Shown piece by piece: positions 134-20,046 of a DNA stretch of 64,000 nucleotides. The stretch lies in contig JAUYRZ010000056.1 in NCBI GenBank assembly GCA_030695565.1, forward strand, positions 1 to 64,000, given 5' to 3'. Under the pieces are notes generated by a model that was not told where the DNA came from, did no database searches, and was given only the letters and a program-made list of their open reading frames with translations. Both the position numbers and the translations under genes were made by a program. Numbering within the stretch: position 1 is the first letter of the stretch; each line of letters begins with the position of its first letter. The DNA is from Archangium sp. GTDB taxonomy: Bacteria > Myxococcota > Myxococcia > Myxococcales > Myxococcaceae.

Positions 134-887
134 GAACGGACTCCTGCTCGAAAAAAGACGTCAAATGCTCATTCAGCCGACGGACTGCAACAGGTTCCGC
201 GGCGCCCGACTCCAGAAAGGGGTCTACCTGAAGATCATCGTGAACACGGATGACGAAGTGAATTCTTCTCGGAGGCACCCTGTACCATTTTTGACCCTTG
301 GCCAACCCCCGCGGGTCAGCCGTGATGGTCACCGGAGTGACCGCCTTCCTGCACCGGACGGCCACGTTGGCAGCCCCCCGTTGCAGCGTGACCTCCCCGC
401 TCAGTGGGGTGCGGGTGCCCTCGGGGAAGATGATCAGCGTTTCGTTGCTCTCCAGCGCTTCCCGACAGTCGTCGACCATCGCCAGGCCCGCGTCGTTGGC
501 GATGTAGCCGGAGGCCTTCACCGGGCCCCGGGTGAACGGGTTTCGCATCAGCGCCGACTTCACCACGCAGCCTGACTGCGGGATGAGCGCGATGATGAAG
601 ATGACGTCGATGAGCGTGGGGTGATTGGCCAGGATCAACAGGCCGGGCCGCTGAAGTCGATCGATGCCGTGCAGCTCGTAGGTGAGCACCTTCACGAAGT
701 TCATCAGCCCGATGAAGAAGCGAAAGCAGTGATGCACCACGAAGCGGGAAAACCGCACGCGCTTCAGCGGGTCTCGCACGAAGAGCGTCATCGGCGGGAT
801 CACGAACAGCGTCACCGCCACCCCGCCCAGCCCGAACACGAAGAAGCAGAAACCCGTGGCGACGATGCGCCAGGCCCGTTCAAACAT
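120..887 (-). CDS. Lysophospholipid-type acyltransferase (PlsC/LPLAT fold) of the APE-like locus
   Basis: A 255-residue acyltransferase. The N-terminus has one or two hydrophobic segments (about residues 8-36). The catalytic NHx4D motif is NHPTLID at residues 88-94 and the FPEGTRT substrate motif is at about 154-160, both as in PlsC-type acyltransferases. I chose the ATG at 887 because upstream codons give only low-complexity sequence and this start overlaps the previous stop by 8 bases. In aryl-polyene gene clusters an acyltransferase of this type follows the truncated ketosynthase gene and precedes the ACPs, and that is the arrangement here. A role moving the finished polyene acyl chain from ACP to a lipid or glycan acceptor is inferred. 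A general 1-acylglycerol-phosphate acyltransferase is the alternative. Confidence 0.88.
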   Translation of the reverse strand: MFERAWRIVATGFCFFVFGLGGVAVTLFVIPPMTLFVRDPLKRVRFSRFVVHHCFRFFIGLMNFVKVLTYELHGIDRLQRPGLLILANHPTLIDVIFIIALIPQSGCVVKSALMRNPFTRGPVKASGYIANDAGLAMVDDCREALESNETLIIFPEGTRTPLSGEVTLQRGAANVAVRCRKAVTPVTITADPRGLAKGQKWYRVPPRRIHFVIRVHDDLQVDPFLESGAAEPVAVRRLNEHLTSFFEQESVRAAP

Positions 888-1599
888 GCCGGGTCCACTT
901 CCACCCGGCGGTGCCGTCGCTGCGGGTGAAGGCGTGCTCGTTGCCCAGGATGAATCGGAGCACCGAGAGGCCATGCGGGAGCACGGTGGAGCGGCTCGCG
1001 GGCAGCTCGGCGGACTCGAGACTGAAGGTGGTGCCCCTGGTGATCCGCAAAGCATAAGCGAAGTCGGAGGGCGGCTCGTCGTAGTGGCTGGCGAAGAGGG
1101 CCGGCGGGCTCGCGTCGTAGACCACGATCATCACTTGATCGTGGCCGTCGTGGAGCAGCCCCACCGCTTCCACCACCGCGGCTTCGGCCGTGAACAGGCC
1201 GTTGGAAATGGCGCTCACGTTGGCCGTGTCGGCGTTGATGATGGAGTACTGCGCGCCGATCGCGTTGTGCACGGAGAGGGCGAAGCTCGCGGGGGAAAGG
1301 GGCTCGATCTTCGCGAGGGAGATGAGCAGGTCGGCGCCGCGGCCGGGGTCTCCGTGACGGGAGGCGAAGATCAGCGGGAAACCGTGCGCCTCGCCCTGGC
1401 ACCATTGCGCGACCTGGAAAGCGGGGCGTCCGAGCTTGTCCACCCGGCGACGGGCCATCGCGGGCACTTCGGTGAGCGGCGGCGTGTCTGCGCCTCGGGG
1501 GGCGACGGGGGCAGCGGCGGCCCACTCGCGCCAGGCGTCTTGCGTGGTCAGACCAGGGGCCCAGGCGGACCAGTTGCTGATGGAGAACTCGAGGCGCAC
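880..1599 (-). CDS. Ketosynthase-N-like protein (chain-length-factor type, APE-like locus)
   Basis: About 239 residues resembling the N-terminal half of a beta-ketoacyl synthase only (the Ketoacyl-synt_2 family typical of aryl-polyene clusters). The start FSISNWSAWAPG is characteristic of that family, and a mid-protein SVHNAIGAQYSI stretch occupies the ketosynthase-like core. No complete Cys-His-His triad is visible, which fits a chain-length-factor partner rather than a condensing enzyme. It overlaps the acyltransferase start by 8 bases. The GTG at 1599 is preferred because it puts the conserved segment near the N-terminus; a TTG at 1644 in the same frame is possible. The active ketosynthase partner is probably one of the two at 16-20 kb. 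Function is inferred from family and context. Confidence 0.82.
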   Translation of the reverse strand: MRLEFSISNWSAWAPGLTTQDAWREWAAAAPVAPRGADTPPLTEVPAMARRRVDKLGRPAFQVAQWCQGEAHGFPLIFASRHGDPGRGADLLISLAKIEPLSPASFALSVHNAIGAQYSIINADTANVSAISNGLFTAEAAVVEAVGLLHDGHDQVMIVVYDASPPALFASHYDEPPSDFAYALRITRGTTFSLESAELPASRSTVLPHGLSVLRFILGNEHAFTRSDGTAGWKWTRHV

Positions 1600-1874
1600 G
1601 GCGACGGGAGGAATAGCTGGTTTCGGCCGGGAGGTCGAAGGCAAGCGGGCTGGGGCAATTCGGGGCGTTCAAACGAACAGCCCCTGGGGTGCGTGGGGGT
1701 TGTGAATCTGGCAGTTGCTCGTCTCGCGCAGGCCTCTTCGGCTCCGGGCGAGGACGCGTTCGGTCGCCATCGGGTGCGTTCAGGCGACGCTCGCGACGGG
1801 CGTCGAGCCGCCTGTACGCGGGTGACTTGTACGCCTGAGCCAACTCGCCTACCGCCTCCGTGGCCCCCGGAGAC
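1600..1874. other. Intergenic stretch without a recognisable gene
   Basis: This 275-base gap lies between the hydroxylase stop and the ketosynthase-N-like start. It holds no ORF with protein-family features. There is a short inverted CAGGCG / CGCCTG pair around 1780-1815 and a repeated TGTACGC, neither strong. It is the most likely site for the promoter of the left APE-like block, but I cannot point to convincing -35 and -10 boxes. Confidence 0.4.
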
Positions 1875-2759
1875 CTAACTGACCTTCCGATAGAACGGCG
1901 CTACCAGCTCGCGCCAGATCGACCTCGTGCCCACCGGATGCACGCCCACCGCCAGCTTCACCGGCGACGACGGCTTGAACGTACCGAAGATGCGATCCCA
2001 CACGATGGTGTGGCAGCCGAAGTTCGAGTTGCTCTGCTCCAGCTCCGGCGAGTGATGGAGCGCATGGTAGCCGGGCAGGTTCACCACCCACCCCAGCCCG
2101 CGCTCCGACACGTTCACGTTCGCGTGCGCGAGAACGCCCAGCACCGCCCCGAACGTCGTCGCGGTCACCACCTCATCGACCCCCGCCCCCACCAGCATCA
2201 GCGGCACCGTGCGCACCACGAAGAACAACACGTTGTCGACCGGGTGCGTGCGCAGCGCCTTGAGCCCGTTGAGCTGGGTGATCAGATGGTGCGTGCTGTG
2301 GAACTGCCACAACAACGGGATGCGGTGTGCCGCGCGGTGAAACCAGTACGAGAAGAACTCCGCCACGAAGAACGCCAGCGCGACCTTGAGCCCGAACGGC
2401 GCGTGACCCGGCCACAGATGCGGCAGGTCGAACCCGAAGCCCTGCGAAGCCAACGCCGGCGTGAGCCACCTCGTCGCGAACGCGATCAACAACGCGCTGA
2501 ACTGCGTGATGAAGAACAGGAACACCAGGTCACGCCGCAAGCCGCCCGGCTCGGGTGAAAACAGGTGCCCGTTCGAGCCGGCATCGGCCGGGAAGAATCG
2601 CTCGATGAGCCAGATGAAGAAGATGAGGCTCAACAACACGCACGACGCGTAGTCGATGCGCACGCCCTGCGCCGCGAGCACGCGCTGCCCTTCGTCGCGG
2701 AAGACGATCGAGCCGATCGCCGACGACAACACCACGGGTACGAAGGCGAACCTGATCAA
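1875..2759 (-). CDS. Sterol desaturase / fatty-acid hydroxylase superfamily membrane enzyme
   Basis: A 294-residue integral membrane protein. The histidine clusters that bind the di-iron centre of this superfamily are present: HRAAH (141-145), HSTHH (154-158) and HALHH (232-236), with a further HAN at 212-214. About four to five hydrophobic segments surround them. Family members use O2 to hydroxylate or desaturate lipids and sterols; the substrate cannot be read from sequence. The start is uncertain: the longest frame opens with TTG at 2759, 9 bases after the receptor stop, and later GTG codons are possible. The close spacing suggests one transcript with the TonB receptor upstream. A link to the neighbouring polyene locus, such as tailoring of the acyl acceptor, is only a possibility. 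Confidence 0.85.
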   Translation of the reverse strand: MIRFAFVPVVLSSAIGSIVFRDEGQRVLAAQGVRIDYASCVLLSLIFFIWLIERFFPADAGSNGHLFSPEPGGLRRDLVFLFFITQFSALLIAFATRWLTPALASQGFGFDLPHLWPGHAPFGLKVALAFFVAEFFSYWFHRAAHRIPLLWQFHSTHHLITQLNGLKALRTHPVDNVLFFVVRTVPLMLVGAGVDEVVTATTFGAVLGVLAHANVNVSERGLGWVVNLPGYHALHHSPELEQSNSNFGCHTIVWDRIFGTFKPSSPVKLAVGVHPVGTRSIWRELVAPFYRKVS

Positions 2760-2768
2760 GCGCGCACT

Positions 2769-5402
2769 TCAGTACTCCGCGCGGATTCCGAGGAACGGGC
2801 GAATGGGCAGGTGCTGAAAGCGCCCCTGGTTGGGCATCACGCCGTTGGCGAGGTCGCCTTCTCCGTAGACCCACGAGAACACGTTCATCGTGTTCGTCAC
2901 GTTGAGCACCTCGGCGTAGAACGCGCACGACAGCGGCCCGATGTGGAAGCGGTACTCACCGCGCAACCCGAGCTCGAAGAAGAATGGATACCGCTCCCCT
3001 GAGGTGCGGCCGAACACCGGCAACCAGAACTCGTTGGTGGCGTTGGGCACGAAGGTATCGACCGGCGTGTAGGGCCGCCCCGTGCGGAAGTTCGCGCGCG
3101 TGGTGAACAACCACTTCGAGTTGGGCGACCAGGAGACGCCAGCCGAAGCGGTGAACTGCTGCTCCCACTGCACGGGGTAGGTGCCCCGCGTGGTCGCCAG
3201 CGGGTTCGAGCGATCTGCCCGCAACGCGCCGATGCCTGCGTTGTACGAAAACTGCCGCGTGCGCCCGAAGAGCATCAGGTCGAAGCCGTACGCGAGCCCG
3301 GTGCCGTCGTTGGTGTACACCGGCAGCCCGCCTGCTTCGCGCGCCAGCACCGCGTCGACACTGTCGGGGTTGACCACCAGGTTCGACATCCACTTGCCCC
3401 ACCCCTCCACGCGCAACAGCGCCTCGAACGGCAGCGGCTGTTCGATCGCGCCAATCAACTGCGCGCTGCGTTCGGGCTGCAGCTTCGGATTTCCGTACGT
3501 GGCATCGAGCGCGAGCGGCGTCTGCAACGGCTGCAGCACGTACCCACCCGACAGCTTCACCACCGTGTGGGTGGGCAAGGTGAGCGCACCCGCCAGCCGC
3601 GCCGAGCCGGTGAAGACCTGGTTGGTCACGTCGTACTGCCCGCGCAGGCCCGCTTCGAACGCCAGCGGCTCGAGGGGCACGAAGGTGTGTTCGGCATACG
3701 CCGAGAGCAGGTTTCGGGTGAGCGAAGGCTGAATCATCAACGCCCGCCTGCGCGAGTCGACGATGGGCTCGCGGGCCCACGGAGCGATGCTGCGCGCGTC
3801 GGCCACCGTGCCGGTGAGGTTCACCTGCCGCCACGCGTATTGCACGCCCGCCGAGCTGCGGTTCTGCTTCGAGAAGACCCACTTCAAGTCGCCACGAAGG
3901 ACCACGTCGTTGCGCAGCGCCTGGGTGGCGAGATCGATGGTGCCCTGCACGTCAGACGCGTTCTCGTCTCGCAGGTACGCCGCGGTGAAGCTGAGCTCGC
4001 TGTCACCGGGCAGATCGACCTCGTGCCGCAAGCTCACGATCTGCGCGGTGTTCGCGAGCTTCAGATCGCCCGCGAAGTTGATCAGCACTTCTTCCCCGGG
4101 CTTGACCACCAGGTTGAAGCCGTCGGACGCGTGCGTGAAGGTCAACATCGTGAGGTGTTGGCCGCGCCGGTACGCCACGCGAACGAACGCCTCGGTGATG
4201 TCGGGCGCCACCACGTTCTGGCCGAACAGCTTGAACGCCTTGAGCACCGCGAAATACGCCTCGAAGTAGCTGCGCCTGAAGCTCACCACCGCCGAGAGGC
4301 CTTCGATGCCCAGCGGCACGTCGGCGCGCACCTTGGCGGTGAGCATCGAGACGTCGGCGATCACCTTCACCTTCTTGACGTCACCGCGCACGTAGCGGAT
4401 GTCGAGCACACCCGAGAGCGCAGGCTCGTACCGGGCGGGCGCAGCGCCTGCGTAGAAGTCGGCCGAGTCGATGAGCAGCGGGTTGATGATCGAAGCGAAC
4501 CCCCCCAGGTGGTACGGGTTGCTCAACGGCACGCCGTCGATGAAGACGATCGTCTCGTCGGGCCCACCCCCTCGCACGAAGAAGTTGGCGAGCAGATCCG
4601 GATCTGCCGCGACGCCGGGCAGCTGCTGCACCACGCGGGTGATGTCTTCCAGCGCGCCGGGCGTGCGATCGATGTCGGCGCGGGTGAGGGAGAACCGGCT
4701 GACCTGCGGTGAGCTGTCGGCGTCGGGCACGCTGGGCAACAACCGGCTGCCCTCCACGCGCGTCTCGAAGCCGCGGCTCTTCACGATGCCGTACCGCACC
4801 ACGGTGCGCTGCCCGCTCTTGAACACCTCGGGGAAACCCTTGAGCGCGTAGCCCTCTTTCTCCACCGTCACCCAGGCATCGCCCACCGGCAACGCTTCGA
4901 AGGTGAGCGAGAAGCGACCCTGTGCGTCGGTCTTCGTTTCTTTGTCACCCAGGCTGACCGAAGCACCTTCGATGGGTTCGCCCAGTTCTCCTCCCACGAC
5001 CTCGCCTTCGAGCGTCCACGGGAGCACCGGCGGCACGAACTCGATCGCCATCTCGATCACCGAATGCGCCGGCACGCCGTCGACCTTCGCGGGCCTCAGC
5101 TCACACGTCTCGATCGATCGAAACGCGGCCGCCGAGAAGACCAGCGAAGGCGAAGAGATGATCGCCCTGTCGGTCACCTTGCCGTCAGGCCCCACGCTCA
5201 CGCGCAGCACCACCGTGCCCCGAATGCCGCTGGTGCGCTCGGAGGCCGGGTACTCGGGCGCTCCGGAACACTTCGCAGAAGGCGGTTCGATCACCGGCCC
5301 GGCGTCAGGCGTCTCCACCCCTGCGCCGGGGAGGAGCTCGAGGCCAGCGTCTTCGACAGGCGCCTGCGACACGACGCTGGCGACCAACAGGGTGAGCAGC
5401 AT
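2769..5402 (-). CDS. TonB-dependent outer-membrane receptor with N-terminal TonB_C-like domain
   Basis: An 877-residue outer-membrane protein. In order: signal peptide (MLLTLLVASVVSQA), a TonB C-terminal-like domain at about 43-124 (GIRGTVVLRVSVGPDGKV, then FRSIETCELRPAKVDG), a carboxypeptidase-regulatory-like beta-sandwich at about 130-215, a plug at about 230-340 (FFVRGGGPDETIVFIDGVPL, SGVLDI) and a 22-strand-type barrel ending in an aromatic-rich terminus. The ATG at 5402 is chosen because it opens the signal peptide; the frame runs further upstream but reads as low-complexity arginine/proline. Receptors of this class import siderophores, glycans or cofactors with energy from TonB-ExbBD; the ligand is unknown. 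The lipoprotein gene ends 4 bases upstream, so the two are likely co-transcribed. Confidence 0.9.
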   Translation of the reverse strand: MLLTLLVASVVSQAPVEDAGLELLPGAGVETPDAGPVIEPPSAKCSGAPEYPASERTSGIRGTVVLRVSVGPDGKVTDRAIISSPSLVFSAAAFRSIETCELRPAKVDGVPAHSVIEMAIEFVPPVLPWTLEGEVVGGELGEPIEGASVSLGDKETKTDAQGRFSLTFEALPVGDAWVTVEKEGYALKGFPEVFKSGQRTVVRYGIVKSRGFETRVEGSRLLPSVPDADSSPQVSRFSLTRADIDRTPGALEDITRVVQQLPGVAADPDLLANFFVRGGGPDETIVFIDGVPLSNPYHLGGFASIINPLLIDSADFYAGAAPARYEPALSGVLDIRYVRGDVKKVKVIADVSMLTAKVRADVPLGIEGLSAVVSFRRSYFEAYFAVLKAFKLFGQNVVAPDITEAFVRVAYRRGQHLTMLTFTHASDGFNLVVKPGEEVLINFAGDLKLANTAQIVSLRHEVDLPGDSELSFTAAYLRDENASDVQGTIDLATQALRNDVVLRGDLKWVFSKQNRSSAGVQYAWRQVNLTGTVADARSIAPWAREPIVDSRRRALMIQPSLTRNLLSAYAEHTFVPLEPLAFEAGLRGQYDVTNQVFTGSARLAGALTLPTHTVVKLSGGYVLQPLQTPLALDATYGNPKLQPERSAQLIGAIEQPLPFEALLRVEGWGKWMSNLVVNPDSVDAVLAREAGGLPVYTNDGTGLAYGFDLMLFGRTRQFSYNAGIGALRADRSNPLATTRGTYPVQWEQQFTASAGVSWSPNSKWLFTTRANFRTGRPYTPVDTFVPNATNEFWLPVFGRTSGERYPFFFELGLRGEYRFHIGPLSCAFYAEVLNVTNTMNVFSWVYGEGDLANGVMPNQGRFQHLPIRPFLGIRAEY

Positions 5403-5406
5403 GCGT

Positions 5407-5745
5407 TCAGGGCGTGGGCGGAGGAGGAGGCGGCGGCGGGGGCGGCGCGTTCGGGTCACCGCTGCCGACCGGCGGCGGCAACACCACTTGATCCGCGGGC
5501 ACGTTCGCGCCTTCGATGGCCGAGATGCGCACCGGGCCCTGCTCGCGCGAGTAGGTGTAGACGGCGCGGCGCCCACACGCTTCGGCCAGGTACTGGGCCC
5601 CCGATTTGGAGACCGTGGAGAGCTTCACCTGGCTCTCGGAGCAGCCGAGATCGCGACCCGCCTGCTTGCGGATGTACTTGTTCTTGTTGCCGCCGCAGCC
5701 GACGGCGAACACCACCAGGGCGAACAACAGACTGAACCGCGCCAT
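5407..5745 (-). CDS. Small lipoprotein with polyproline tail
   Basis: A 112-residue protein with a lipoprotein signal (FALVVFAVGC; Cys17 is the expected lipidated residue). A short middle region holds two further cysteines (DLGCSES and AEACGRR) and resembles small myxobacterial lipoproteins with a conserved cysteine pair. It ends in an uninterrupted run of prolines (about residues 101-110). The ATG at 5745 follows a good ribosome-binding site (GGAGG, with the pattern GGAGGTAGGTC before the ATG). It lies just upstream of the TonB receptor on the same strand. I do not recognise a specific function; a structural or partner role for the receptor is possible. Confidence 0.8.
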   Translation of the reverse strand: MARFSLLFALVVFAVGCGGNKNKYIRKQAGRDLGCSESQVKLSTVSKSGAQYLAEACGRRAVYTYSREQGPVRISAIEGANVPADQVVLPPPVGSGDPNAPPPPPPPPPPTP

Positions 5746-5838: not shown

Positions 5839-7344
5839 ATGGCGCAGCTGCTCACTTTCGACGGTCACCCGCTCCACATCGAAGACGTCACGGCGATCTC
5901 CCGAAGGGAGCTCAACGCCCGGTTGTCAGGCGACTCGACCTTTCTGGCCCGCATCGAAGCGGGCGCCGCCCACGTGGCGCGCACCCTGGCTGAGCAGGGC
6001 GTCATCTACGGCGTGACCACCGGCTACGGCGACTCGGTCACCACCCCGGTGCCGCCAGAGCTGGTCCCCGAGCTCGGTCACCGCCTGTTCACCTACCACG
6101 GCGTGGGCCTCGGCCCCCCGTTCGGCATCGAAGAGACCCGCGCCATTCTCGCGGCGCGATTGCAGTCGCTCTCGCAGGGCCTCTCGGGTGTGAGCGTGGT
6201 GATGCTGCGCCAGCTCGAGCGGTTGTTGGTCGACGACCTTCTGCCCGTCATCCCCCAGGAAGGTTCGGTCGGGGCGAGCGGCGATCTCACCCCGCTCTCC
6301 TACGTGGCGGCCGTCTTGTGCGGCGAGCGCGACGTGTTCGTCGATGGCGTGCGCACGCCCACCGCCGAGGTGTTCAAGGCCCGGGGCATCGCGCCGATTC
6401 AGCTCAAGCCCAAAGAGGGCCTGGCGATCATGAACGGCACCGCCGTGATGACCGGGCTGGCGTGCCTCGCTTTCGAACGCGCCGAGGGGCTCTCGCGGTT
6501 GAGCGCGCACCTGACCGCGATGGCCTCGGCGGCGATGGGCGGCAACCCGCACCACTTCGATGAACGTCTGTTCCAGGCCAAGCCGCACGTGGGCCAGCAG
6601 CGCGTCGCCGGGTGGATCCGCGCGGATCTCGCGGGCTCGGAGCGCAGTGAGTCGCGCCTGCAGGATCGGTATTCGATTCGGTGCGCACCGCACGTGATCG
6701 GGGTGCTCGAAGACACGCTGCCGTTCCTGCGATCGTTGATCGAGAACGAGCTCAACAGCGCGAACGACAACCCGTTGATCGATCCCGAAGATGGCCGGGT
6801 GATGCACGGCGGGCACTTCTACGGCGGGCACATCGCGCTCGCGATGGACACGCTCAAGAACGTGGTGGCGAACCTGGCTGACCTGATGGATCGGCAGATC
6901 GCGCTGCTGGTGGATACCCGGTTCAATCACGGGCTCCCGGCGAACCTGAGCGGTGCGACCGGGCAGCGGGCGTCGGTCAGCCACGGGCTCAAGGCGCTGC
7001 AGATCGGCGCGTCGGCCTGGGCGGCTGAAGCGCTCAAGCTCACCATGCCGGCGTCGGTGTTCTCGCGTTCGACCGAGTGTCACAACCAGGACAAGGTCAG
7101 CATGGGCACCATCGCGGCTCGTGATGCGCTGCGCGTGCTCACGCTGACGGAGCAGGTCGCGGCGGCGCACGTGGTGACCGCGCGGCAGGCGGTGTTCTTG
7201 AAGGCCCGCTCGGGCGCGAAGGTGCCGGCGGGGGTTTTGAAACTTGCCGAGCAGATGGGGGTCGAGCCGTTGATTGAAGATCGGGTGCTCGAGCCGGAGC
7301 TGCGGGGGTTGATTGCTCGCATGCCGGCGCTCGGGAAGATCTGA
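5839..7344 (+). CDS. MIO-dependent aromatic amino acid ammonia-lyase (HAL/PAL family)
   Basis: A 501-residue member of the histidine/phenylalanine/tyrosine ammonia-lyase family. The A146-S147-G148 triad in VGASGDLTPL forms the MIO electrophile; the Tyr loop (YGVTTGYGDS) and the QDKVSMGTIAARDA motif are intact. The ATG at 5839 gives the family-typical N-terminus; the frame extends upstream antisense to other genes. The substrate-selectivity position reads Tyr86-His87, unlike Ser-His in canonical HutH, His-Leu in the Rhodobacter tyrosine lyase or Phe-Leu in phenylalanine lyases. No hutU, hutI or hutG lies nearby. Lying between two APE-like blocks, it most plausibly makes an aryl-acrylate starter, but histidine remains possible. 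It is divergent from the lipoprotein gene across 93 bases. Confidence 0.92.
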   Translation: MAQLLTFDGHPLHIEDVTAISRRELNARLSGDSTFLARIEAGAAHVARTLAEQGVIYGVTTGYGDSVTTPVPPELVPELGHRLFTYHGVGLGPPFGIEETRAILAARLQSLSQGLSGVSVVMLRQLERLLVDDLLPVIPQEGSVGASGDLTPLSYVAAVLCGERDVFVDGVRTPTAEVFKARGIAPIQLKPKEGLAIMNGTAVMTGLACLAFERAEGLSRLSAHLTAMASAAMGGNPHHFDERLFQAKPHVGQQRVAGWIRADLAGSERSESRLQDRYSIRCAPHVIGVLEDTLPFLRSLIENELNSANDNPLIDPEDGRVMHGGHFYGGHIALAMDTLKNVVANLADLMDRQIALLVDTRFNHGLPANLSGATGQRASVSHGLKALQIGASAWAAEALKLTMPASVFSRSTECHNQDKVSMGTIAARDALRVLTLTEQVAAAHVVTARQAVFLKARSGAKVPAGVLKLAEQMGVEPLIEDRVLEPELRGLIARMPALGKI

Positions 7345-16457: not shown

Positions 16458-17687
16458 TCAGGGCCACCTTCGGAAGATGAGCGAAGTGTTGATGCCCCCG
16501 AAGGCGAAGTTGTTGGTCATCACGAACTCGGTGTCGATCACCCGGTGATCCCCGCGGATGTAGTCGAGCACGCCGCACTTCGGGTCGATGGTCTCGAGGT
16601 TCAAGGTGGGCGCCATCCACTTCTCGCGCTGCATCTCGATGGTCATCCACGCCTCGAGCGCACCGCACGCGCCCAGGGTGTGGCCCATGTAGCTCTTCAA
16701 GCTGCTGATGGGCATGCGCTCGCCGAACACCGACTGCGTGGCGTGCGATTCGGCCACGTCGCCCTGGGCGGTGGCCGTGCCGTGGGCGTTCACGTAGCCG
16801 ATCGCCTCGGGCGGCAGCTTCGCGTCGGCAAGCGCGAGCCTCATGGCGTTGGCCATGGTGGAGCTGTTGGGGTTGGTGACGTGGGTGCCGTCGCTGTTGG
16901 TGCCGAAGCCCACCAGCTCCGCGAGGATCTTCGCGCCGCGCGCCTTCGCGTGTTCGAGCTCCTCCAGCACCAGCGTGCCGGCGCCTTCACCGAGCACCAG
17001 GCCGTCGCGGTTGGCGTCGAACGGCCGCGGCGTCTTGCGGGGCGCGTCATTGGTGGTGCTGGTGGCGAACAGCGTGTCGAAGACGGCCACCTGGGTGGCG
17101 TCGAACTCTTCCGCGCCGCCGGCCAGCATGGCGGTCTGCGCCCCGTGGCGGATCGCCTCGTAGCCGTAGCCGATGCCCTGGCTGCCCGAGGTGCACGCGC
17201 TGCTGGTGGTGATGATGCGGCCGGTCAGCCCGAAGAACACGCCCACGTTCACCGGCGCCGTGTGCGACATCATCTTGATGTACGTGGTGGCGGTGATGCC
17301 GTCGGTGGTCTTGTTGAGCAGCATGCGCCCGAAGTCGGCGATGAACTCAGGCGAACCCGATGAGCTGCCGTAGCTGACGCCCATCTGACCGGTCTTGATC
17401 CACGGATCACCGAAGAGCCCGGCGTCGCGCAGGGCGATCTCCGAGGCGCGCGTGGCCATCATCGCCACCCGGCCCATGCCGCGCATGGTCTTCCGGTTGT
17501 AGACCTTCTCGTCGAGCGTGAACGGCGCCGCCAGCGCGGCCAGCCGGGTGCCCATGCCTTCGTACTGCTGGAGCACCTCGGCCACCTGGATGGCGTTCTG
17601 CTTCGCCTTGAGGCGCGCGAAGACGGTCGGCCAGTCGTTTCCCAGTGGGCTCAAGGCCCCGACTCCTGTCACCACCACGCGTCTCAT
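16458..17687 (-). CDS. Beta-ketoacyl-ACP synthase (FabF-like; ApeR-like position)
   Basis: A 409-residue condensing enzyme. The active site is complete: Cys165 in TTSSACTSG, His302 in VNAHGTAT, Lys331 and His336 in KSYMGHTLGA. The C-terminus NNFAFGGINTSLI is canonical. It catalyses decarboxylative Claisen condensation of malonyl-ACP with an acyl-ACP. It follows the ketoreductase with a 1-base TGATG overlap, in the order ketosynthase-dehydratase-ketoreductase-ketosynthase that is conserved in aryl-polyene clusters, where the last ketosynthase is thought to act early or in supporting elongation. A housekeeping FabF role is less likely given that no fabD, fabH or acpP lies beside it, but it cannot be excluded. 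Confidence 0.9.
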   Translation of the reverse strand: MRRVVVTGVGALSPLGNDWPTVFARLKAKQNAIQVAEVLQQYEGMGTRLAALAAPFTLDEKVYNRKTMRGMGRVAMMATRASEIALRDAGLFGDPWIKTGQMGVSYGSSSGSPEFIADFGRMLLNKTTDGITATTYIKMMSHTAPVNVGVFFGLTGRIITTSSACTSGSQGIGYGYEAIRHGAQTAMLAGGAEEFDATQVAVFDTLFATSTTNDAPRKTPRPFDANRDGLVLGEGAGTLVLEELEHAKARGAKILAELVGFGTNSDGTHVTNPNSSTMANAMRLALADAKLPPEAIGYVNAHGTATAQGDVAESHATQSVFGERMPISSLKSYMGHTLGACGALEAWMTIEMQREKWMAPTLNLETIDPKCGVLDYIRGDHRVIDTEFVMTNNFAFGGINTSLIFRRWP

Positions 17688-18418
17688 CAGCCCAGGCCTC
17701 CGTTCACCGAGATCACCTGCCGCGTCACATACGACGCTTCGGGTGAGAGGAGAAAGGCTACCGCGGCCGCGACCTCTTCGGGCTTCCCCAGACGACGGGC
17801 AGGGATGAGCTCGAGCGCGTGTTTGATCACCTCTTCAGACACCATCTCGGTCTCGATGAGCCCGGGCGCCACGCAGTTCACGGTGATCTCACGTTTGGCC
17901 AGCTCGAGCGCGAGCGCCTTGGTGGCCCCGATGATGCCGGCCTTGGCCGCGCTGTAGTTGACCTGCCCGCGGTTGCCGAGCACCCCCGACACCGACGAGA
18001 TGGTCACGATGCGGCCCGGCTTGCGGCGCTGCACCAGCGGCATCACCAGCGGGCGGAGCACGTTGTAGAAGGCGTCGAGGTTGGTGTGGATGACGCTGTC
18101 CCACTCCTCGCCGGTCATCGCGGGGAAGGCCGTGTCGCGGGCGATGCCGGCGTTGCACACCACCCCGTAGTAGGCGCCGTGCGCTTCCACGTCGGCTTCC
18201 AGCGCCGCGGCGGTGGCCGCCCGATCGCTCACGTCGAAGGTGAGCAGGCGGGTCTTCGCCCCCAGCGCGGTGAGCTGCTCCATCACGGCCTTCGCTTCGT
18301 CGACCCGCGAGCGGCAGTGCACCACCACGTCGAACCCGTCTTTTCCCGCGCGCAGGGCGATGGCGCGGCCGATGCCTCGCGATGAGCCGGTGACGAGAAC
18401 CGTCTGCCTTTCAGCCAT
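17687..18418 (-). CDS. 3-oxoacyl-ACP reductase (FabG-like; APE-like locus)
   Basis: A 243-residue short-chain dehydrogenase. The NADPH loop is TGSSRGIG (residues 10-17), the CNAG motif is at 88-91 and the catalytic residues are Ser142, Tyr155 and Lys159 (NYSAAKAG). It reduces the beta-keto group on ACP-bound chains. The start overlaps the dehydratase's 3' end by 8 bases and its stop overlaps the next ketosynthase by 1 base, so the block is translationally coupled. Context identifies it as the ketoreductase of an aryl-polyene-type iterative synthase. The sequence alone fits any FabG. Confidence 0.92.
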   Translation of the reverse strand: MAERQTVLVTGSSRGIGRAIALRAGKDGFDVVVHCRSRVDEAKAVMEQLTALGAKTRLLTFDVSDRAATAAALEADVEAHGAYYGVVCNAGIARDTAFPAMTGEEWDSVIHTNLDAFYNVLRPLVMPLVQRRKPGRIVTISSVSGVLGNRGQVNYSAAKAGIIGATKALALELAKREITVNCVAPGLIETEMVSEEVIKHALELIPARRLGKPEEVAAAVAFLLSPEASYVTRQVISVNGGLG

Positions 18419-18875
18419 GGGTGTTGCCTCGCAGGTATTCTTCGACGTTGGGGGGTTGAAAGGCGTTGAGCTGGGCCGTGGCGATGAGCTCGTGCTTCAG
18501 CGTCAGGCGGCAGGCGAAGACGGCCAGCCCGTTTTCACCCACCATCTCTTCGCGGGCTTCGATCTCCAGCCGCGAACCGACGGGGAAGAAGGGCCGGGCA
18601 CACTCGTAGCGGCGGGTGCCCAGCAGGAACCCCAGCTTCACCGGTTCGTGCTTCGCCAGCGCGCGCAAGCCCGCCCAGGACGCCACGGTCTGCGCCATCA
18701 GCTCGATGCCCACCCAGGCCGGGAGGCCTTCGGGGGTGAGGAAGAGCTGGTCAGGCTTGACGATCGACTCCACCCGCACCAACTCGGGGGTGTCTTCCAG
18801 CAGTCGATCGATGAGCAGCATCGGCCCGCGGTGAGGCACCAGGTTCGAGATGTGACCTTCGTACGAACGGGCCAT
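18411..18875 (-). CDS. 3-hydroxyacyl-ACP dehydratase, hotdog fold (ApeP-like)
   Basis: A 154-residue hotdog-fold protein of the FabZ/FabA-like type found in aryl-polyene clusters. The catalytic His is His15 in LVPHRGPMLLID and the acidic partner is Glu58 in WVGIELMAQTVA. It would dehydrate 3-hydroxyacyl-ACP to give trans double bonds in the polyene. It starts 1 base after the upstream ketosynthase stop and overlaps the reductase start. Compared with FabZ (about 145 residues) the length is normal. The ATG at 18875 gives MARSYEGHIS, as in relatives. Confidence 0.88.
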   Translation of the reverse strand: MARSYEGHISNLVPHRGPMLLIDRLLEDTPELVRVESIVKPDQLFLTPEGLPAWVGIELMAQTVASWAGLRALAKHEPVKLGFLLGTRRYECARPFFPVGSRLEIEAREEMVGENGLAVFACRLTLKHELIATAQLNAFQPPNVEEYLRGNTHG

Positions 18876-18876
18876 G

Positions 18877-20046
18877 TCAGCTCCGCACCAGCGCGAGGGA
18901 GGCGTTGCTGCCCCCGAACGCGAACGAGTTGCTCAGCGCAGCGCGCACCGGCGCGCGTTCACCCGGCGTCACCAACCGCAGTCGAGGCAGCTCGACCTCG
19001 CGTTCGCCGTCGAACCAGTGGGGCGGCAGGCGGTGGGCGGGGTCGGTCAGGGTCAACCAGCAGATCGCGGCTTCGAGCGCACCGGCAGCGCCCAGGGTGT
19101 GACCGGTGAGCGGCTTGGTCGAGCTCGAGGGCACCTGGAGACCGAGCACGGCGTCGACCGCGCGGGACTCCATGGCGTCGTTCTGCGGCGTCGCGGTGCC
19201 GTGCAGGTTGAGATAGCCGATGTCGCTGGCCTTCAGCTGCGCGCGGGCGAGGGCCTGGCGCATCGCCTCGGCGGCGCCTTTGCCAGTGGGTTCAGGGGCA
19301 GAGAGATGGTGCGCGTCTGAGGTCTCCCCCCACCCCGCCAGCCGCACCGGGCCCGCCTCGCGGGTGACCAGGAAGAGCGTGGCGGCCTCACCGATGTTGA
19401 TGCCGTTGCGGTTCTTGCTCATCGGGTTGCAACGTTCGGCGCTGACCGACTCCAGCGCGCTGAAGCCGGCGATGGTGAAGCGGCACAGTGAATCGGCACC
19501 GCCGGCGATCACCGCGTCGACGAAACCCGCTTCGAGCCAGCGGGCGGCCGAAGCCAGCGCCTTCGCGCTCGAGCTGCAGGCGGTGGAGATGACGCAGGTC
19601 GGGCCGCGCGTGCCCAGCGTGGCGGCGAGGAAGCGCGCCGGAGAGCCGAGCTCCTGCATGGTGTAGTGGTAGCCCGGAGTCAGCGCGCCGGCCTTCACCA
19701 ACGCGTCGATGGCCAGCTCGGCTTCACCGATGCCCGAGGTGCTGGTGCCCATCACCACGCCGATGCGCGCGGGGCCGAAGCGGGCGATCGCCGCGTCGAC
19801 CGCGGGGCGGATCTGGGCGAGCGCGAGGCGCACCAACGCGTTGTTGCGGCTGCGAAACTCGACCGCGGCGTCTTCGAGTGAGGGCATCACCGCGTCGATG
19901 CGGCCGAGCGCGAGGGGGCGATCGGGGGCGTAGAAATCGGTCGTCTTCACGCCGGAAGGTGCGGGGCCGAAGAGCGCTTCACGCACGGCGTGTTGGCCTT
20001 CGCCCAGTGCGCAGACGAGGCCGAGCTCTGAGAGGTAAGCGCTCAT
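18877..20046 (-). CDS. Beta-ketoacyl-ACP synthase (ApeO-like)
   Basis: A 389-residue condensing enzyme with a full catalytic set: Cys157 in STACSSS, His282 in LNLHGTAT, Lys311 and His316 in KPLTGHTLGA, ending in NSFAFGGSNASLAL. In aryl-polyene systems the ketosynthase in this position works as a heterodimer with a chain-length factor; here the candidate factor is the protein at 880-1599, some 17 kb away. It begins a tightly coupled ketosynthase-dehydratase-ketoreductase-ketosynthase run. The gap of 73 bases to the lipoprotein upstream has no obvious promoter, so it is probably co-transcribed. Confidence 0.9.
   Translation of the reverse strand: MSAYLSELGLVCALGEGQHAVREALFGPAPSGVKTTDFYAPDRPLALGRIDAVMPSLEDAAVEFRSRNNALVRLALAQIRPAVDAAIARFGPARIGVVMGTSTSGIGEAELAIDALVKAGALTPGYHYTMQELGSPARFLAATLGTRGPTCVISTACSSSAKALASAARWLEAGFVDAVIAGGADSLCRFTIAGFSALESVSAERCNPMSKNRNGINIGEAATLFLVTREAGPVRLAGWGETSDAHHLSAPEPTGKGAAEAMRQALARAQLKASDIGYLNLHGTATPQNDAMESRAVDAVLGLQVPSSSTKPLTGHTLGAAGALEAAICWLTLTDPAHRLPPHWFDGEREVELPRLRLVTPGERAPVRAALSNSFAFGGSNASLALVRS

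Follow-up and report, generated by a model that had tools for sequence, protein, structure and literature searches.

Competition among outer-membrane TonB-dependent transporters (TBDTs) for TonB is a long-standing question. The receptor considered here is encoded in a 64,000-nucleotide stretch of DNA from Archangium sp. (assembly GCA_030695565.1, contig JAUYRZ010000056.1, positions 1 to 64,000), hereafter the window, and bears between its probable signal peptide and its plug a segment predicted to have the fold of a TonB C-terminal domain (TonB_C).

The N-terminal architectures of TBDTs were surveyed by Gómez-Santos et al. (2019), who distributed 34,893 of these proteins among five classes based on CarboxypepD, STN, AMIN or no extension; the accessible part of that survey (PMC6434023) does not name TonB_C. 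Inclusion required a match to the barrel profile PF00593, and receptors such as that of the window, without a match to this profile at E<=0.1, may therefore have been left out. Oar of Myxococcus xanthus and the SusC-type receptors resemble the window's protein in having a CarboxypepD_reg extension followed by the TonB box and the plug; in contrast, TonB_C is not mentioned for Oar in the same portion of text, which also describes that Oar remains able to support PopC secretion when this extension is missing (PMC6434023). The STN transducers FecA, FpvA and FoxA have an extra periplasmic domain before the TonB box as well. According to the available excerpts, the signalling domain of FpvA pairs with the strand of its own box and that of FecA can block the box (PMC11658791), and in FoxA TonB is constitutively held by residues that immediately precede the box (PMC6699858). 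The receptors described here differ from these transducers because their domain is a TonB C-terminal domain and not STN, and in six genomes no FecR is found near them.

A search at the level of titles and abstracts of open-licence papers gave no description of a receptor fused to TonB_C, the nearest idea being VreA (PA0674) of Pseudomonas aeruginosa. As far as the accessible text goes, VreA is a periplasmic protein related to receptors, and its model includes a TolA/TonB-like domain; unlike the fusion, VreA is a 23 kDa protein with STN first, the TolA/TonB-like domain second and no barrel (PMC2729926). Among profiled families the closest is MxcH, the myxochelin receptor (NCBIfam NF038079), whose model matches the TonB_C segment of the window's receptor with positions 9-89 and, from position 1, that of all eight paralogues scanned in the same genome. 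In contrast to the window's receptor, in five TonB_C-carrying MxcH-family genes a linker and no CarboxypepD separates the domain from the box (by eye), and seven family members are devoid of TonB_C. The window's protein is not MxcH, since its score is 40.5 bits, whereas the cut-off is 925, and its best stretch is in the TonB_C part.

Identity and fold of the TonB_C segment

The receptor, whose parts are listed in Table 1, is a TonB-dependent transporter in which the plug, a barrel fitting BtuB and a putative TonB box are all present; in particular, plug and barrel (model residues 211-877) superpose on BtuB with a VIA Z of 36.7 and a root-mean-square deviation of 2.3 over 517 residues. The full-length AlphaFold2 (AF2) model has a confidence (pLDDT) of 84.7, obtained with an 85-sequence alignment (A3) made of 75/77 references and ten others. 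The start codon is presumed, the reading frame being open as far as a GTG at 5576.

The first-pass annotation, made from the DNA letters, had placed a TonB C-terminal-like segment at residues 43-124, between signal peptide and plug, followed by a regulatory beta-sandwich. Both elements are found in this order and almost at the predicted residues, far beyond chance: PF03544 matches residues 48-123 of the receptor protein (E 5.7e-12, 46.4 bits, cut-off 24.6) and NCBIfam tonB_Cterm TIGR01352 residues 49-122 (1.2e-9), and the beta-sandwich corresponds to CarboxypepD_reg. The isolated TonB_C segment scores 51.7 bits against PF03544, and the same family is matched by 111/111 aligned segments, 90 receptor-borne and 21 TonB-borne. 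STN is absent from the families that these 111 segments match at E<=0.01, and the STN profile PF07660 has no match in the receptor protein at E<=0.1.

Modelling leads to the same assignment. The isolated segment (residues 37-128) is predicted with a pLDDT of 92.8 from a 111-sequence alignment (A4) composed of 108/114 references, the window's receptor, L045 and L046; TonB and its homologue FusB account for the first 16 Foldseek matches of this model (E<=0.001 for three of the matches), and TolA and HasB rank after these proteins. It superposes on Neisseria TonB with a VIA Z of 11.0 (82 residues, 1.8 Å) and on Pseudomonas TonB bound to FoxA with a Z of 10.3. Matches of the sequence alone to solved TonB C-terminal domains are weak (best 0.0011), and the fold search with the full-length model is uninformative on TonB_C because barrels filled the match list. 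On these models the segment has the TonB C-terminal fold; the outcome that would have refuted the first-pass annotation, merely another CarboxypepD or STN fold, was not observed, the case against STN being based on the profile matches. The fusion is a well-supported architecture within the TBDTs bearing an N-terminal extension, whose role we infer below.

Two cysteines of the window's TonB_C, C45 (5268-5270) and C100 (5103-5105), are also found in L045 and L046; they sit on the model strands 42-45 and 100-103, and positions 45 and 101 couple. A C45-C100 disulphide is possible.

Distribution of the fusion

The fusion was surveyed in genomes of one phylum, and a restriction to Myxococcota is not claimed. 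Nine of the 21 Plug matches (E<=0.001) in the window's genome have TonB_C in frame and nearer the N terminus, and in five genomes of other genera and families the fusions are 5/25, 1/3, 3/6, 3/16 and 5/14 of the Plug matches; the total of 26/85 for the six genomes, counted by matching coordinates by eye, is a low estimate because the Plug model misses some fusions, such as C92, the second one in G104, which was recovered by a TonB_C-to-plug profile. Plug and STN matches coincide in 0/85. Thus the survey of myxobacterial receptors that had been proposed for this locus reveals a widespread architecture and no one-off. The TonB_C-to-plug profile matches 181/195 genomes of the phylum at 1e-10, a figure that is not a fusion count since matches may be partial. 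Among the loci retrieved, 216 open reading frames (ORFs) were verified as fusions; they come from 121 genomes with 29 family codes, and TonB_C is N-terminal of the plug in 216/216. The plasmid search returned 20 records, all below 80% query coverage, and the 15 listed start at query residue 107 or later and so miss the TonB_C part.

In 31/207 locus entries the receptor is preceded on its own strand, within 900 nt, by the end of a tonB-type domain, the gap to the TonB_C of the receptor being 88-652 nt. The 216 ORFs, like the 207 and 31 entries, include a few places twice (e.g. L069/L162, L079/L221), and loci L069-L098 favour tonB genes because they were retrieved by a TonB_C search; among the loci from L099 upwards, L133, L268, L303 and L304 failed as fusions and were left out. 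In L288, L069, L301 and others about 100-300 nt separate the end of the tonB-type gene from the TonB_C of the fused receptor, so that in several families two TonB_C copies stand head to tail across a gene boundary.

Lineage, loss and constraint of the receptor-borne domain

The phylogeny of TonB_C was reconstructed from 156 domains, 92 receptor-borne, 62 TonB-borne and two from the short-linker receptors L049 and L059 of the window's genome, which the plug profile had missed and which were added by hand as 'rec2'; the fusions were thinned at 62% identity, and 62/77 other TonB_C ORFs were retained after dropping truncated, weak or duplicate ones. The alignment is short (91 columns) and 79/153 inner branches are open. 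On this tree the receptor-borne and TonB-borne states require 5 changes, compared to an average of about 49 after shuffling. Constraining the 92 receptor-borne rows to one group improves on the free quick tree by 100.6 log units, and with a p-AU of 0.988 for these 92 rows a single clade is not rejected. The TonB_C of the window is a divergent member, its nearest row being L292. Recent capture from a neighbouring tonB was considered and finds no support: the domains of adjacent pairs are 0.329 alike, versus 0.325 to other TonBs, and lie mostly apart in the tree.

The domain is absent in several relatives. On a CarboxypepD-plug tree its presence changes 5 times (92 receptors with it, 20 without; shuffled mean 18.7), and the nearest relative of the window's receptor is L047, which has no TonB_C and keeps the box and the plug; TonB_C is present in L045 and L046, and L048 is an uninformative fragment at the end of a contig. 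Lack of the domain was the criterion by which the 20 receptors without it (L309-L327 and L047) were selected, and L328 was dropped, the contig end being inside an apparent TonB_C tail. In the MxcH family, 26/34 of the matches listed begin at model position 1-2, seven at 79-115 and one at 254. TonB_C is present in 5/5 genes examined of the 26, and the seven late-starting members show no TonB_C in the three frames of the receptor's strand; the receptors without it keep the box and the plug. By eye, its place is taken by a CarboxypepD-like segment in L337 and L339 or by almost nothing in L340, and these N-termini make the N-terminal module seem exchangeable within one receptor family.

Among the window's receptor, L045 and L046, the ratio of nonsynonymous to synonymous substitution rates (dN/dS) is 0.29-0.46 for TonB_C, 0.17-0.29 for CarboxypepD, 0.07-0.23 for the box-linker, 0.01-0.04 for the plug and 0.19-0.30 for the barrel. 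In the two comparisons that include the window TonB_C evolves fastest, and between L045 and L046 its ratio is on a par with those of CarboxypepD and barrel. By these sequence comparisons the receptor-borne domain is kept and yet dispensable.

Receptor-borne and TonB-borne copies share the TonB fold and a core made of P41, P52, G74, V76, F102, P104 and F122, with L at position 102 in the window. In the TonB-borne copies R56 (0.89), R57 (0.68), E61 (0.95) and K/R at 107 (0.66) are also conserved, as residue frequencies and not as functions, whereas in the receptor-borne ones R56 falls to 0.12 and E61 to 0.32, position 107 is V/I and R57 is not conserved either. The fused domain further differs from that of TonB in being part of an exported receptor with no anchor or rod, and in being usually acidic.

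TonB box and energy supply

The first-pass annotation had also called for a search for a canonical TonB box, and FETRVEGSR was found shortly before the plug; T214 and V216 of this candidate are invariant in an alignment of 12 receptors. The consensus over 198 non-redundant fusions is [YF]-E-T-V-V-R-G-x-R. The strict pattern E-[TA]-[VTIR]-[VI] occurs in 122/198, and a very loose one, which chance would often meet too, in 178/198. An exbB-exbD-tonB operon is encoded in the same genome (L050 12504-14436), together with further stand-alone TonB_C proteins. In the receptor, nothing more than a signal-peptide-like start plus about 20 residues stands before TonB_C, with neither a TonB-type inner-membrane anchor nor a proline-rich rod, and therefore with no link to the proton-motive force. 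Nothing suggests energy delivery by the fused domain.

Possible roles of the fused domain

As a tentative proposal, the fused domain would be an accessory periplasmic module with the TonB C-terminal fold, putatively modulating the engagement of TonB and most likely acting via the transducing TonB. Such a module would lie ahead of the TonB box, at the position held elsewhere by the STN signalling domain, and presumably would deliver no energy itself. It could touch the transducing TonB, C-terminal domain to C-terminal domain, a contact that opposite charges would favour in most members, or lie beside the box, and would set how readily TonB engages a given receptor when many are present in the cell; pairing with the box and opening of the plug would still be the task of the real TonB, powered by ExbBD. 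The fold, the domain order, the retained box, the spread through the phylum, the separation from stand-alone TonB and the absence in close relatives are shown by the comparisons above, and the action of the module is deduced from them. In a broader and more doubtful version, a TonB domain would have departed from the Ton machine a single time, reversed its charge and occupied the place of STN in Myxococcota as a built-in TonB partner or brake; if this were true, cells that have few TonBs for dozens of receptors could adjust the TonB share of each receptor via the module. A TonB domain in cis, natural relatives with and without it and examples across the phylum make TonB competition testable by deletion of the domain; MxcH-family pairs with and without TonB_C are held by the same genome in G162, G073 and G075.

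The charge on which the proposed contact would depend was calculated over residues 51-122, where the net value averages -4.7 in the 92 receptor-borne copies versus +1.4 in the 62 TonB-borne ones, with a p-value of 1.6e-21 that is not independent evidence because the receptor-borne domains may descend from a single lineage. In 12/12 adjacent tonB-receptor pairs remaining after de-replication, the receptor has the more acidic copy. Besides the possible shared ancestry, several observations weigh against a TonB-modulating module. The TonB_C of the window is neutral (net 0 over the same residues) among seven copies of its genome, the others ranging from -2 to -7. The other parts of the fusions are acidic too, less so than TonB_C (per 100 residues, CarboxypepD -3.8 and plug -1.9 versus -6.8), and in the window CarboxypepD reaches -6.4 and the plug -8.1. 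No tonB adjoins the receptor gene of the window, and none was seen just upstream in 176/207 locus entries; moreover, a dN/dS far above that of the plug reflects a constraint that is real but weak. Finally, the box-linker is basic in the fusions and, by eye, also in receptors without TonB_C, so that charge does not discriminate between a contact with TonB and one with the box of the receptor itself. The charge complementarity with the own box-linker was dropped as special evidence, since domain-less relatives look basic there.

Contact with the own box is the basis of the closest rival, rather unlikely in our ranking, in which TonB_C would bind the box by strand addition at rest and release it when substrate binds, in an FpvA-like manner. 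The C-terminal domains of TonB and TolA bind their targets by beta-strand addition, as the accessible text of PMC12204202 reports, FpvA and FecA offer precedents in the available part of PMC11658791, tethering would give a high local concentration, and in the short-linker kinds (L049, L059, L308 and MxcH) no CarboxypepD stands between domain and box. Nevertheless, residues 210-225 are disordered and without a strand in the full-length AF2 model (pLDDT <50), a basic linker is not peculiar to receptors with the domain, and the top TonB_C-box coupling (3.9 standard deviations, versus 5.5 for TonB_C-plug and 6.1 for TonB_C-CarboxypepD) gives no signal; the mean-field couplings, from 217 sequences with an effective number of 155, are underpowered, yet plausible TonB_C-internal pairs ranked highest. 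Of the three options of the first-pass annotation, by which the domain could gate, mimic or replace the contact of TonB with the box, gating is thus conceivable and lacks support, and mimicry holds at the level of the fold in the Foldseek and VIA comparisons. Replacement has no support: a self-energising receptor, which the shared fold would allow, is extremely improbable given the missing TonB-type membrane anchor and proline-rich rod, the presence of exbB-exbD-tonB with its stand-alone tonB, the box kept in most fusions and the relatives that retain box and plug without the domain.

The position of the domain, the same as that of STN, could instead point to surface signalling, with TonB_C relaying a ligand-bound signal to an inner-membrane regulator in place of the STN of FecA and FpvA. 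The 0/85 Plug matches with STN versus 26/85 with TonB_C in the six genomes would agree with such a substitution, as would VreA, where STN is joined to a TolA/TonB-like domain in the part of PMC2729926 that is available. This role is decidedly unlikely: the domain is not STN by profile, and no FecR match lies, by eye, within 5 kb of the 26 fusions of the six genomes, in a search that covered FecR only and in which a neighbour could be hidden because several fusions, that of the window included, are near contig ends. On the window's contig there is no FecR match, the receptor being 2.8 kb from the contig end. Generic docking to another periplasmic partner or to the cell wall, or the role of a nearly functionless spacer, would fit the loss of the domain in L047 and in MxcH-family members, with a CarboxypepD-like segment or nothing instead (by eye), and its weaker constraint compared to the plug; it is rather unlikely, and a conserved fold core and the occurrence in 29 families argue against a mere relic.

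Gene neighbourhood

The features of the window are collected in Table 1. The small gene for a 112-residue lipoprotein-like protein, which has no Pfam match at E<=0.01, lies 4 bases upstream of the receptor ORF and probably forms one operon with it, judging from spacing and strand. The neighbours of the receptor between 880 and 20046 resemble the genes of an aryl-polyene or flexirubin-type pathway.

Table 1. Features of the window around the receptor gene
Feature	Position	Strand	Basis and remarks
Ketoacyl-synt_2	880-1644		Pfam; near receptor
Fatty-acid hydroxylase	1875-2759		Pfam; near receptor
Receptor ORF	2769-5402	minus	877 aa; outer-membrane TonB-dependent receptor
Outer-membrane beta-barrel, residues 336-877	2772..4397	minus	AF2 strands; Foldseek and VIA matches to TonB-dependent transporters
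Plug domain, residues 234-328	4419..4703	minus	Pfam PF07715, 8.3e-11, 42.8 bits, cut-off 23.9
TonB box candidate FETRVEGSR, residues 212-220	4743..4769	minus	Shortly N-terminal of plug; conservation
CarboxypepD_reg beta-sandwich, residues 130-194	4821..5015	minus	Pfam PF13620, 1.7e-9, 38.3 bits, cut-off 32.3
TonB C-terminal domain (TonB_C), residues 37-126	5025..5294	minus	Pfam, AF2 model, structure matches
Probable signal peptide MLLTLLVASVVSQAP, residues 1-15	5358..5402	minus	Hydrophobic start visible in translation
Small lipoprotein-like gene, 112 aa (LVVFAVGCGG...)	5407..5745	minus	ORF list
Aromatic amino-acid lyase	5869-7344	plus	Pfam; near receptor
Ketosynthase-, reductase- and dehydratase-like ORFs	16458-20046		By eye

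A similar synthase-like and hydroxylase-like ORF is seen, by eye, near the receptor orthologue of L045. Three other fusions of the same genome are directly followed by a gene for a lipoprotein-like protein of about 400 residues (L060:5202-6434, L050:9305-10486 and L053:9749-10834), which suggests receptor-lipoprotein pairs; the copies of L050 and L053 are 51% and 41% identical to that of L060, for which Pfam gives no match at E<=0.01.

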